Part shown: positions 50,866-56,732 of the stretch, piece by piece
Layout: each line of letters opens with the position of its first letter
Position numbering within the stretch: position 1 is the first letter of the stretch
Notes under the pieces: generated by a model
Databases searched by the model: none
The model's input: the letters and a program-made list of their open reading frames with translations, nothing else
What the model was told of the DNA's origin: nothing
Assembly: GCF_014138285.1 (NCBI RefSeq)
Contig: NZ_JACGXN010000007.1
Span: 186,001 to 250,000, forward strand
Direction of reading: 5' to 3'
Origin: Phyllobacterium myrsinacearum
GTDB taxonomy: Bacteria; Pseudomonadota; Alphaproteobacteria; Rhizobiales; Rhizobiaceae
Length of the DNA stretch: 64,000 nt
Position numbers and translations under genes: made by a program

Positions 50866-52332
50866 ATGAGCTTGGGCAGCATTCTCGTTGCGGATGACGA
50901 CGCAGCAATCAGAACGGTCCTCAATCAGGCGCTTTCGCGCGCCGGTTATGATGTGCGCATCACATCCAATGCAGCCACCCTGTGGCGCTGGATTTCCGCC
51001 GGTGACGGCGATCTTGTGATCACCGATGTGGTGATGCCGGATGAAAACGCCTTTGACCTTCTGCCGCGCATCAAGAAATCGCGCCCTGATCTGCCGGTTA
51101 TCGTCATGAGCGCGCAGAACACCTTCATGACGGCAATCCGTGCTTCGGAGGCAGGCGCCTATGAATATCTGCCAAAGCCATTTGATCTGACTGAACTTGT
51201 CAGCATTGTCGGCCGCGCATTGGCCGAACCGAAGAAAAAGCCGGAAAAATGGGTTAACGAAGAACAGCCGGATACCATGCCTCTGGTCGGCCGTTCGCCT
51301 GCCATGCAGGATATCTACCGTGTTCTTGCCCGCATGATGCAGACCGACCTGACCGTGATGATTTCGGGCGAATCCGGCACCGGCAAGGAATTGGTTGCAA
51401 GCGCGTTGCATGAATATGGCCGCCGCCGCAAGGGGCCGTTCGTTGCCATCAACATGGCCGCGATTCCACGCGACCTGATCGAATCTGAACTGTTTGGTCA
51501 TGAACGGGGTGCATTCACCGGTGCGCAGAATCGTTCGAGCGGCCGGTTCGAACAGGCCGATGGCGGCACGCTGTTCCTTGATGAAATTGGCGATATGCCG
51601 ATGGAAGCACAGACACGTTTGCTGCGTGTCCTGCAGCAGGGTGAATATATGACCGTGGGTGGACGCACCCCGATCAAGACAGATGTGCGTATCGTTGCGG
51701 CAACCAACAAGGATCTGCGGACGCTGATCAATCAGGGCATGTTCCGTGAAGATCTCTATTACCGCCTGAATGTCGTGCCGCTACGCCTGCCGCCGCTGCG
51801 TGAGCGCGGCGAGGATATTCCTGATCTCGTCCGTCACTTCTTCAAGATGGCGGCAAAGGACGGACTGCCGGAGAAACGCATCACTGCCGATGGCCTCGAC
51901 TTGATGCGCCGCTATCCCTGGGCCGGCAATGTGCGCGAACTGGAAAATCTGGTGCGCCGCCTTGCAGCGCTTTATCCGCAGGAAGAAATCAATGCGGATG
52001 TGATCGAGGCGGAGCTCAAGGCTGACTTGCGGCCGACCGAGCCATCCTCCTCGTCGATGTCCAATGAAGACATCACCATCGCGCAGGCGGTGGAGCTGAA
52101 CATGCAGCGCTATTTCCTCTCCTATGGCGATGATCTGCCGCCGGTTGGGCTTTACCAGCGTGTGCTTGAGGAAGTGGAATATCCGCTCATCCTGTCATGC
52201 CTGACGGCCACCCATGGCAACCAGATCAAGGCGGCTGAACTGCTCGGCCTCAACCGCAATACGCTGCGCAAGAAGATCCGCGAGTTGGGCGTGAATATCT
52301 ATAAAAACACCAAGAGCGATATGGGGCGGTGA
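50866..52332 (+). CDS. ntrC: Nitrogen regulation response regulator NtrC
   Basis: NtrC activates sigma-54 promoters under nitrogen limitation. The 488-residue protein has a receiver domain (about 5-120; phospho-acceptor Asp in [11 protein letters not shown]), an AAA+ domain (about 145-380) with Walker A GESGTGKE, the sigma-54-contacting GAFTGA loop in [10 protein letters not shown] and Walker [12 protein letters not shown], and a C-terminal Fis-type HTH. A terminator follows; ntrY and ntrX, its usual neighbours in rhizobia, are not present downstream. Confidence 0.97.
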
Positions 52333-52397
52333 ATTATCCGCATGCTGAATGAGCGGCGGATTTAAGAGCTGGTTTTCTCAGAAATTGCTATTTTGTA

Positions 52398-52436
52398 CAA
52401 ACGGGACCGTACGCGCACACGATCCCGTTTTAGTTT
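52398..52436. terminator. Bidirectional hairpin terminator between ntrC and the immunity-like gene
   Basis: ACGGGACCGT (52401-52410) pairs with ACGATCCCGT (52419-52428) except for one C-A mismatch, with flanking AAA and TTTTAGTTT. It can serve both ntrC and the converging toxin/immunity unit. Confidence 0.8.
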
Positions 52437-52801
52437 CATTCAGCCTTGAATGTCTGATCAACTGAAAGCTCTACTCTTTGATCGCAGGCCATTGTGGCGA
52501 AGTATCGTCCTAAACTCTTGCCATTACTTTTAACGTAAACTGTGACTTCCCAGCCGTGGATGCCCGAATTGTATCCAAAATCCTCGTCGAGCTCGAGGTC
52601 GTCATACTGAAAGTCATTTTTTGCAATTTTAGTGACGTAAGAAAGTATGCCGTACTTAACTGTTGCGGTTGGCATCTCCGGGCATTGCGTTGTTCTGTCT
52701 CGGAGCAATGGGATGCCGTAGACGACAAACACTGCAAACAGGAACAACACCACCACAATGGTTACTGTCACGCCAAGGACCCATTTCAATAGTTTCCACA
52801 T
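52436..52801 (-). CDS. Probable immunity protein to the adjacent colicin M-like toxin, membrane-anchored
   Basis: The 121-residue protein has a basic start, one long N-terminal membrane helix (about 8-32) and an extracytoplasmic domain of about 88 residues with exactly two cysteines, C40 and C106. This is the architecture of the colicin M immunity protein Cmi (about 117 residues, N-terminally anchored, periplasmic, with a disulfide between two similarly placed cysteines as I recall). Its ATG overlaps the toxin stop as TAATG, with GGGAGG inside the toxin gene, so the two are translated together. Base composition is AT-richer than the flanks. Direct sequence similarity to Cmi was not tested; the call rests on architecture and coupling. 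Confidence 0.72.
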   Translation of the reverse strand: MWKLLKWVLGVTVTIVVVLFLFAVFVVYGIPLLRDRTTQCPEMPTATVKYGILSYVTKIAKNDFQYDDLELDEDFGYNSGIHGWEVTVYVKSNGKSLGRYFATMACDQRVELSVDQTFKAE

Positions 52802-53643
52802 TAATGGCCCTCCCAGGAGATGGGAATGGAACCTGGCATTGCTATGTCATACTTCGTGCCCGGTAAGAGATTTACTGTTCTTGTGAACAGTTCCTGCATC
52901 ATTCCACGGTGATCGCTCGGATTGAAATCATAATGATCATCATAGGCGCGAATTTCGCCTTTGAAGTTCCATGTTCCGTCTTGATGACGGGTCATGTCAC
53001 CTTCTACCTTCAACGAGATGTTCCCTAGGTACGCCGCTGCAATTGCATTATCTTCTGCTGTGTTGTGATTAAATTTCTCGACTACAATGTGTTTCGTTCC
53101 GATAAACTTTGAGTCATTAGTGTACTGACTTAACTGATTAGTTTCTCCTATTTTTACTTGATCTGGCCGAAGGTTGAGCCCGATCTGGTTTAACGGGACG
53201 CTCAATGCTTCTCCATGGCCTTGAAGATAATGCGCCATGGCCTTGAAGGGTGATGCTATTCCGCCGGATAATGTGGTGTCATTTTTATCATAAGTCTTCG
53301 CGCGTTCCGGCTCTGACTCCACACCATTTATCAAGTCCAGAGGCGTGTTCCGTTTGCTGAGGACATTATCGAGAAATGAAAGGCCATTAAGCCAGGTGAT
53401 GAAATCCCCAGGCGTATCCAGCAGCGCATTCAGACCACTTACAATCCATTTGAGCCCGGGCAGACTGTTGAGAGAATCCCAGAACGCTTTTTGCATATAT
53501 TCCTGATACTGATCCCACAATCGCTCCATTTCCGTATGCGGATCGTATAATCGGCCCCCGGCCCAACCGGTGAATGAATTACCGGGACTACTGTCTTCCC
53601 AAGATTTAATGATGATTGGTCTCAAGACTATTGTTTCAGGCAT
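52801..53643 (-). CDS. Colicin M-like bacteriocin (lipid II-degrading phosphodiesterase)
   Basis: Colicin M-type toxins enter through an outer-membrane TonB receptor and cut undecaprenyl-linked lipid II in the periplasm. The start is the ATG at 53643 with AAGGAG eight bases upstream, giving 280 residues (colicin M has 271). Near the N-terminus PETIVLRP resembles a TonB box. The middle (about 35-120) is a helical putative receptor-binding region. The C-terminal domain carries MAHYLQGHGEALSV, AAAYLGNISLKVEG and YDDHYDFNPSDHRG, closely matching colicin M. The catalytic set D236, Y238, D239, H245 and R246 keeps the exact D-x-Y-D-x5-H-R spacing. There is no signal peptide or lysis gene in view. 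Composition is AT-rich, suggesting transfer. Confidence 0.92.
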   Translation of the reverse strand: MPETIVLRPIIIKSWEDSSPGNSFTGWAGGRLYDPHTEMERLWDQYQEYMQKAFWDSLNSLPGLKWIVSGLNALLDTPGDFITWLNGLSFLDNVLSKRNTPLDLINGVESEPERAKTYDKNDTTLSGGIASPFKAMAHYLQGHGEALSVPLNQIGLNLRPDQVKIGETNQLSQYTNDSKFIGTKHIVVEKFNHNTAEDNAIAAAYLGNISLKVEGDMTRHQDGTWNFKGEIRAYDDHYDFNPSDHRGMMQELFTRTVNLLPGTKYDIAMPGSIPISWEGH

Positions 53644-53902
53644 GCTCAAATCTCCTTATTAAAAACAAAAAACATCAAAATGAAAATCCGACTTTCCAGC
53701 CTTTATGAGAGCTGGCTCAATCAGTAAGCGGCACTGGCGAATTTGAATCGGGACAGGAGCGTTAGGATTCTCGGAAAATAAATGTTCTAAATAGGCACAT
53801 TATTGGTAAATATGATAATTTTAGTCAAGAATTAATTGCATGGATTTATCGCGTAGGTCATTGTCGAAGTCACTTCTTCGGGCCAGCGCCCCCACCAGCC
53901 GC
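53644..53902 (-). promoter_or_regulatory. Upstream region and candidate promoter of the colicin M-like operon
   Basis: This AT-rich 259-bp gap contains, on the minus strand, TTGACT (53823-53828) and AATAAT (53799-53804) with an 18-bp spacer, a good vegetative promoter. It implies a leader of about 150 nt before the toxin ATG. I looked for the alphaproteobacterial SOS box (GTTCN7GTTC or GAACN7GAAC) and found none. Confidence 0.5.
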
Positions 53903-55769: not shown

Positions 55770-56732
55770 ATGTGGAACTTCAGCATCTTCTGTAGCCTGA
55801 TCACCTTGGCGCGAACATGGCCCTTTGTCTTGCTGCGATTGGTCGTGTATCTCGCTATACCCATCGCCTATTGCACTATTATCGCATGCGGAGCAGGGGT
55901 GGGGTATGGTATTGGCCATATCTTCATCCTGTCGGATGCAGATGCCCCTGCGCGATGCGCGGGTATTGGCGGCCTTATCGGCTTCATTACAGCCACAGCT
56001 CTGGTCTACGGCTTGCGCGAATACCTGCTCTATATACTCAAGGCAGGACATATCGCAGTGCTCGTGCATCTGATCGCGGGCGAAGCAGTTCCAGGCGGGC
56101 AGGGGCAGTTGACCTATGCGCGCAAGATGGTCACCGAACGGTTCCTTGAAGCCAATGTATTTTTCGTGTTCGATCAGCTTATCAAAGCTGTTCTGGGATC
56201 GATTAGCACGCTGACGACAGGTTTGGCTTCGCTTATACCGGTTCCGGGATTGATGGCTGCTGCAAACCTCATCAACAGCTTTATCCGCATGTCGATTACC
56301 TATGTCGATGAAATCATTCTCGGTTACAATATCCGCATGACAGGTGCCTCGCCGTTCGAGAACGGCATGCGCGGCGTCGTGCTTTATGCTCAGAACAGCA
56401 AGATCATGGTGAAAAATGCAATCTGGCTGTCATTCATTGTCTGGACCATGACTGCAGTCATTTTCGCAGCGACGCTGACGCCGGCGGCGGCCATGGTTTA
56501 CTGGATACCAGGTCCCGGTGCTGGATACGCGGTTCTCTTCGCCCTGGCGCTGGCATGGGCGTTAAAACTGGCGCTGCTTGAGCCCTTTGCCATTACTGCT
56601 CTCATGACGGTCTATTTCAGCGCCATTGAAGGACAGGTTGCCGATCCGGAGCGGGAGCAACGGCTAAGCCAGACGTCCCAGGCCTTCCGCAACCTGAAGG
56701 ACAAGGCGCTGGGTGGTCTTGCCGCCGTTTGA
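55770..56732 (+). CDS. Multi-pass membrane protein of unknown function
   Basis: The 320-residue protein has about six hydrophobic segments (near 18-48, 65-95, 160-185, 215-235, 240-265 and 268-290) and a charged C-terminal tail (VADPEREQRLSQTSQAFRNL). I do not recognise a family by eye. Gly/Ala-rich segments such as YWIPGPGAGYAVLFALALAW resemble eukaryotic choline-transporter-like proteins only loosely. It has a 228-bp AT-rich upstream region and stands alone, converging on the DUF486 gene. Confidence 0.7.
   Translation: MWNFSIFCSLITLARTWPFVLLRLVVYLAIPIAYCTIIACGAGVGYGIGHIFILSDADAPARCAGIGGLIGFITATALVYGLREYLLYILKAGHIAVLVHLIAGEAVPGGQGQLTYARKMVTERFLEANVFFVFDQLIKAVLGSISTLTTGLASLIPVPGLMAAANLINSFIRMSITYVDEIILGYNIRMTGASPFENGMRGVVLYAQNSKIMVKNAIWLSFIVWTMTAVIFAATLTPAAAMVYWIPGPGAGYAVLFALALAWALKLALLEPFAITALMTVYFSAIEGQVADPEREQRLSQTSQAFRNLKDKALGGLAAV

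Follow-up and report, generated by a model that had tools for sequence, protein, structure and literature searches.

Two genes inserted between ntrC and acdR

The stretch analysed here, referred to as the window, is 64,000 nucleotides of the Phyllobacterium myrsinacearum genome (contig NZ_JACGXN010000007.1, positions 186,001 to 250,000); its genome is designated G000. Between the stop codons of ntrC and acdR the window carries a cassette of two genes: one for a protein of the colicin M family of bacteriocins and, overlapping its stop codon, a small gene for a putative membrane-anchored partner, followed by a terminator-like hairpin (Table 1). An earlier reading of the sequence (the original prediction) had picked out the first gene as a lipid II-degrading bacteriocin; it overlooked the partner gene, and it also missed the insertion at ntrC/acdR, toxin decay in related genomes and the host-genus type of the toxin's TonB box.

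Table 1. Features of the cassette, with positions in the window.
Feature	Position	Strand	Remarks
Cassette between the ntrC and acdR stop codons, 1,570 bp	52333..53902	.	G015 and G003 have 9 and 23 bp there; guanine-cytosine (GC) content 45.4%
Terminator-like hairpin behind the candidate immunity gene	52399..52430	-	-19.2 kcal/mol, z -4.3
Candidate immunity gene, 121 aa; one N-terminal membrane helix, C40, C106, E111	52436..52801	-	ATG overlaps toxin stop (TAATG)
colM-type bacteriocin gene, 280 aa	52801..53643	-	PF14859 1.8e-38; colicin M 2xtr 3.8e-32; dN/dS (nonsynonymous to synonymous rate ratio) 0.105, G000 vs G008
ColM catalytic domain, residues 119-280	52804..53289	-	Pfam, PDB sequence and tree comparisons
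Catalytic motif D236-x-Y238-D239-x5-H245-R246	52906..52938	-	Motif as in PMC5821083
Putative receptor-binding region, residues 35-118	53290..53541	-	Role inferred from position
TonB box, residues 4-13, TIVLRPIIIK	53605..53634	-	18.3 bits on matrix from Phyllobacterium receptor TonB boxes

A predicted bacteriocin of the colicin M family

Judged by its sequence, the product of the toxin open reading frame (ORF) is a colicin M-family protein, as originally claimed. The Pfam profile PF14859 (Colicin_M) matches residues 119-275 with an E-value of 1.8e-38 and 132.7 bits (cut-off 27), and the catalytic domain is 43% identical to that of Escherichia coli colicin M. Sequence matches in the PDB include colicin M (2xtr, E 3.8e-32), pectocin M2 (3.9e-29) and pectocin M1 (8.4e-28), together with entries named just 'Bacteriocin' (4fzl, 4fzm, 4fzn) or 'phosphodiesterase' (4g75); a search of NCBIfam returned no family at E <= 1. 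The five residues singled out by the original prediction, D236, Y238, D239, H245 and R246, are all present with their spacing intact, and the pattern they form, DxYDx5HR, is the catalytic motif of the family (PMC5821083). Size and three-part layout likewise agree with colicin M: 280 residues compared to 271, with a TonB box, a middle region and a ColM domain. Structure prediction from a three-row alignment gave a poor model (mean predicted local distance difference test score, 36.5); a ColM fold is expected for the catalytic domain, given approximately 40% identity to solved structures.

The frame occupies exactly the bounds given in Table 1, from an ATG to a TAA. An in-frame TTG at 53649, the start in the ORF list, was set aside in favor of the ATG because a Shine-Dalgarno-like AAGGAG lies 8 nt upstream of the latter. 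No signal sequence is apparent in the toxin, as judged by eye and without a predictor.

A TonB box in the style of the host genus

The TonB-box-like segment that had been noted at the N-terminus proved to be real and above chance. We scored it with a matrix built from the TonB boxes of receptors in the genus: there were 72 receptor matches, loci for 34 of them, and 29 of these were used, representing 23 distinct boxes. Five receptor rows (L058-L061, L069) were left out because the motif finder's site was judged wrong; this one receptor type lacks the common TonB-box form before the Plug domain, and VTLLQRLVVG / VTLLQRLVIG may be its variant. Six Plug-domain receptors in the genome of the window itself display, ahead of the plug, segments such as TIELNPIIIN, VIELKPITIR, NIELAPIVLK and SITLDPIYIN.

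On this matrix the toxin box scores somewhat below the matrix's own training boxes (20.5-31.7 bits). Its 18.3 bits were not reached anywhere in the window's other gene-like ORFs (18,462 positions; 60 such ORFs overall), in six-frame ORFs of at least 30 aa (87,458 positions) or in 20,000 shuffles. The toxin copy of a second Phyllobacterium genome, G008, scores 13.5 (a value with no decoy count) and an N-terminal piece in a third, G005, scores 20.1, while the N-termini of five gammaproteobacterial ColM proteins score below zero. We conclude from these comparisons that, by sequence, the toxin carries a TonB box in the host genus's own style, xIxLxPIxI. The TonB box of colicin M is of the E. coli type.

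The resemblance to receptors is essentially confined to the box. Residues 1-34 resemble receptor N-termini with a score that beats 200 of 200 shuffles, and this is due to the TonB box; residues 14-60 and 14-118 show no likeness to the same N-termini (136 and 110 of 200 shuffles, respectively, reach the score), and the likeness to one receptor (L040) extends just a few residues beyond the box. Residues 1-118 have no convincing homologue in the PDB (best E 0.031) and none in plasmid records. Among 20 Phyllobacterium genomes they are found at full length only in G000 and G008, with two remnants in G005 and, beyond these, just rows at E 0.2 or worse; no other N-terminal domain was found by Pfam or by a PDB search with residues 1-118. 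The N-terminal region thus has no known relatives in the PDB, in plasmids or among other genes of the genus, and for this reason residues ~35-118 fit a new putative receptor-binding module, as had been suggested.

The partner as a candidate immunity protein

Sequence and model, read without a topology predictor, give the partner protein a single N-terminal anchor, a periplasmic domain and two cysteines. Its gene is open in all four Phyllobacterium genomes that carry it, even where the toxin beside it is broken; in G008 the frame as used starts at an upstream TTG, and a GTG overlapping the toxin stop is the likelier start. Searches of Pfam and NCBIfam and with single-sequence hidden Markov models (HMMs) yielded no family for it. 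The Pfam YebF signature (PF13995) has no match at E <= 10 in the four Phyllobacterium partners; the E. coli and Klebsiella partners match it. YebF was also absent among the matches listed by VIA-align (50 rows), A1 used as a profile against the PDB gave no sequence of interest (best E 0.2), the protein found nothing in plasmid records and its alignment nothing in IMG/VR.

With hhalign, the partner profile matches that of gammaproteobacterial colicin M immunity proteins (72.9%, E 3.1e-5); in two separate controls, none of 500 shuffles reached that score. MAFFT aligns the partner glutamate E111 with E113 of the colicin M immunity protein Cmi, and the substitution E113A is described as abolishing Cmi activity (PMC8469651). 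Two results weigh against homology to Cmi: a profile comparison with two sequences gave just 1.3%, and hmmsearch gave E-values of 7-17. The best reading is that the partner is a diverged Cmi-like immunity protein, and as such it would link immunity proteins with and without the YebF signature. A related observation concerns the partner of a Pantoea ColM toxin (L037 2469-2816): it has no Pfam match, and a profile built from the other immunity proteins detects it (E 1.2e-4). This suggests that more ColM immunity types are related than has been reported.

Insertion, selection and descent

ntrC is present in 20 of 20 Phyllobacterium genomes. The gap between ntrC and acdR measures 9 bp in G015, 23 bp in G003 and 1,570 bp in G000, where it is filled by toxin gene, partner gene and terminator-like hairpin. 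G008 has the same arrangement as G000, including a hairpin with a partly different stem after the partner gene (-16.6 kcal/mol, z -4.8). In the other 16 genomes of the genus neither acdR nor the cassette is found in the 1.5 kb behind ntrC. G015 and G003 are good evidence of an empty site, although the genus as a whole does not share it. The cassette region is the GC minimum of 625 cassette-sized windows (44.8% at 52301; mean 56.1, standard deviation 2.4); ColM regions of Pseudomonas are likewise described as low in GC, at 41-52% (PMC5277000). We consider the cassette chromosomal because it lies on a contig of 275,925 bp beside ispDF-, dusB-, ntrB- and ntrC-type genes (named from their domains).

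Comparison of G000 with G008 gives a dN/dS of 0.105 for the whole toxin (0.116 for residues 35-118 and 0.084 for the catalytic domain), 0.27 for the partner, 0.013 for ntrC and 0.017 for acdR. On these ratios, both toxin copies are kept under constraint. Synonymous divergence is 0.48 over the whole toxin (residues 35-118, 0.86; catalytic domain, 0.33) and 0.28 over the partner; ntrC and acdR have diverged by 0.56 and 1.79, respectively. Because the values for catalytic domain and partner lie below those of both neighbors, an exchange of parts of the cassette may postdate the divergence of the neighboring genes.

When 28 catalytic domains are placed in a tree, the three from Phyllobacterium group together (support 100/100) on a branch of length 1.34 without a resolved sister. 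The branch is not nested in any sampled gammaproteobacterial clade, though the tool warns of long branches. The tree contains no Burkholderia clade; L106 (no open frame by the filter) and five duplicate rows were removed from it.

Distribution and decay in relatives

PF14859 matches four of the 20 Phyllobacterium genomes, three of them above the cut-off; the toxin is intact in two (G000, G008) and broken in two (G005, G012). Wider draws of genomes, which are overlapping samples, add little. The family draw has matches in 2 of 394 genomes, both Phyllobacterium and one above the cut-off, carriers G005 and G008 being found only in the genus draw; the order draw has 2 of 397 (G000 and a weak match of 20.4 bits, below the cut-off, in L009); the class draw (1 of 385) and the phylum draw (1 of 299; many of the listed genomes are near kin) return G000 alone. 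Fourteen control genomes gave no PF14859 match, so these runs contain no positive control outside the genus. No match above the cut-off lies outside Phyllobacterium in the alphaproteobacteria sampled by the family, order and class draws. A relative with 75% identity over residues 95-280 occurs in Phyllobacterium endophyticum PEPV15; the scan that returned only this species was built on patterns taken from the query, so it has no bearing on more distant members.

The two broken copies differ in form. In G005 the pair sits at another locus, beside a gene that we take to be dapD; an N-terminal piece and the catalytic part are not in frame with each other, and little is left of the middle region. 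In G012 just a C-terminal toxin fragment is left (L004 1399-1635), its open frame fused to a permease-like start: residues 4-36 of this remnant match the start of a PrtD-type (type I) secretion permease (E 7.5e-8) and the rest is the ColM C-terminus. The fusion is probably a recombination scar. Toxin remnant and intact partner gene are flanked here by a direct repeat of 256 columns (94.5%; L004 1043-1296 and 2048-2301), the 3' end of an AraC-type regulator gene, which offers a hint of the mechanism by which the cassette was inserted or copied. The combination of a broken toxin with an intact partner matches the 'cheater' orphan immunity genes known from descriptions of Pseudomonas (PMC5277000).

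A tblastn search with the toxin found 495 plasmid records in eight genera, all gammaproteobacterial (602 at another E limit). A phage or plasmid origin was considered and set aside: the matching plasmid (495/602) and phage (1) records are all below 60% identity. The closest ColM protein in IMG/VR (L082 3665-4480) is 45.9% identical over 146 catalytic-domain residues; by eye, its N-terminus is unlike a TonB box and perhaps of ferredoxin type. Ferredoxin-type N-termini are known from pectocins.

Among the literature matches listed, no paper concerns an alphaproteobacterial ColM bacteriocin by its title or abstract start, and the terms alphaproteobacteri- and rhizobi- are absent from the available text of PMC5821083, PMC8469651, PMC4661593 and PMC5277000. 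With no literature match listed, and none above the Pfam cut-off outside the genus in the sampled alphaproteobacteria, the suggestion that an alphaproteobacterial member may be undescribed still stands.

A probable bacteriocin-immunity pair and its alternatives

We interpret the cassette as a bacteriocin-immunity pair that belongs to the colicin M family, is located on the chromosome and was probably gained by horizontal transfer, in which a TonB-imported, lipid II-cleaving toxin aimed at relatives is matched by a Cmi-like partner; we place the probability of this reading at about 85%. Domain content, motif, tag, partner architecture, insertion and constraint support it at the level of sequence, while receptor docking, TonB import, lipid II cleavage and protection by the partner are inferred from what is described for the family (PMC5821083, PMC8469651). 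On this model, the toxin would leave the producer by some route, residues ~35-118 would bind a TonB-dependent receptor on a related bacterium, and the target's TonB would pull the toxin into the periplasm via residues 4-13. There the ColM domain would cleave lipid II and cell-wall synthesis would stop; the producer would be protected by the membrane-anchored periplasmic partner, which would block the ColM domain.

It is unlikely, in our estimation, that the partner is an unrelated membrane protein which merely accompanies the toxin, while immunity is lacking or comes from a gene elsewhere. Its failure to join any family by Pfam, NCBIfam or single-sequence HMM would fit such a passenger, but its start overlaps the toxin stop, it is kept in 4/4 genomes even with a broken toxin, it has two cysteines and a glutamate placed opposite Cmi E113 by MAFFT, and its profile matches gammaproteobacterial colicin M immunity proteins.

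Quite improbable, too, is the view that the toxin gene came recently from a gammaproteobacterium, has not adapted, and is now decaying in Phyllobacterium without serving as a weapon any longer. Breakage in 2/4 copies, the low GC of the cassette and the possible exchange after the split of G000 and G008 speak for decay; purifying selection on both intact copies (0.105), a TonB box of host type and the placement of the catalytic domains on one long branch with full support, not inside any gammaproteobacterial clade sampled (subject to the long-branch warning), speak against it. Delivery of the ColM domain by other means, as a secretion-system effector or contact-dependent toxin whose N-terminus is no TonB box, appears very improbable: the lack of any recognised release or lysis gene in the cassette would fit it, but the stand-alone layout resembles that of colicin M, the N-terminal TonB box is above chance and no other N-terminal domain was found.

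Comparison with known ColM systems

The bacteriocin-immunity pair proposed here shares with colicin M and Cmi of E. coli a ColM domain with DxYDx5HR, its size, an N-terminal TonB box and a membrane-anchored, two-cysteine partner. It differs in its unrelated middle region, in its N-terminus (TIVLRPIIIK rather than METLTVHAP), in a partner that lacks the Pfam YebF signature and is encoded on the same strand, overlapping the toxin, whereas cmi lies on the opposite strand, and in being chromosomal and in another bacterial class. The ColM toxins of Pseudomonas (PaeM, PflM, syringacin M) and their immunity protein PmiA are described as likewise encoded in chromosomal, low-GC cassettes with a same-strand downstream immunity gene, and these loci, too, include orphan immunity genes beside toxin remnants (PMC5277000, PMC5821083); PmiA, however, has four membrane helices, compared to one helix and a periplasmic domain in the Phyllobacterium partner. 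The burkhocins M and BmiB of Burkholderia also have, as described, a downstream same-strand single-helix partner with two conserved cysteines (PMC4661593, PMC5821083), BmiB being characterised as without sequence homology to Cmi (PMC4661593); unlike the Phyllobacterium toxin, burkhocins have a signal sequence and are extended at the C-terminus (PMC5821083). The likeness to burkhocins and BmiB was judged from published descriptions.

A 2017 survey reports nuclease bacteriocins only in Gammaproteobacteria, for a reason it calls unclear; the sole enzymatic bacteriocin that it names as identified in another class is a colicin M type in Burkholderia (PMC5536347). If our interpretation is true, enzymatic, TonB-imported bacteriocins extend to a third class, in a plant-associated alphaproteobacterium, and the question of the class barrier becomes testable. 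A broader proposal has, we feel, even odds of being correct: that TonB-imported, colicin-like weapons exist beyond Gamma- and Betaproteobacteria, the class barrier being one of TonB-box dialect (here the xIxLxPIxI of the host genus), and that the periplasmic immunity proteins of ColM toxins, whether or not they have the YebF signature (Cmi, the Pantoea type and the Phyllobacterium partner), belong to a single superfamily recognisable by its two cysteines and the C-terminal motif C-x(3-5)-[VIF]-E. With intact pairs, toxin-less immunity carriers and cassette-free genomes in one genus, Phyllobacterium offers a natural set for bacteriocin ecology.

Regulation and neighboring genes

GTTCN7GTTC is the alphaproteobacterial LexA consensus. 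With up to one mismatch allowed, no such box occurs in 53644-53902 or upstream of the G008 toxin gene, and LexA-box-like sites are at chance level both in the window (55, with 50.7 expected) and in L005 (10, with 8.8 expected); a LexA box, the mark of colicins under SOS control, was rejected on these grounds. Elsewhere in the window, at 55770-56732 on the plus strand, a 320-aa protein with no Pfam or NCBIfam match is encoded beside an acdS-type gene and is probably a membrane protein.
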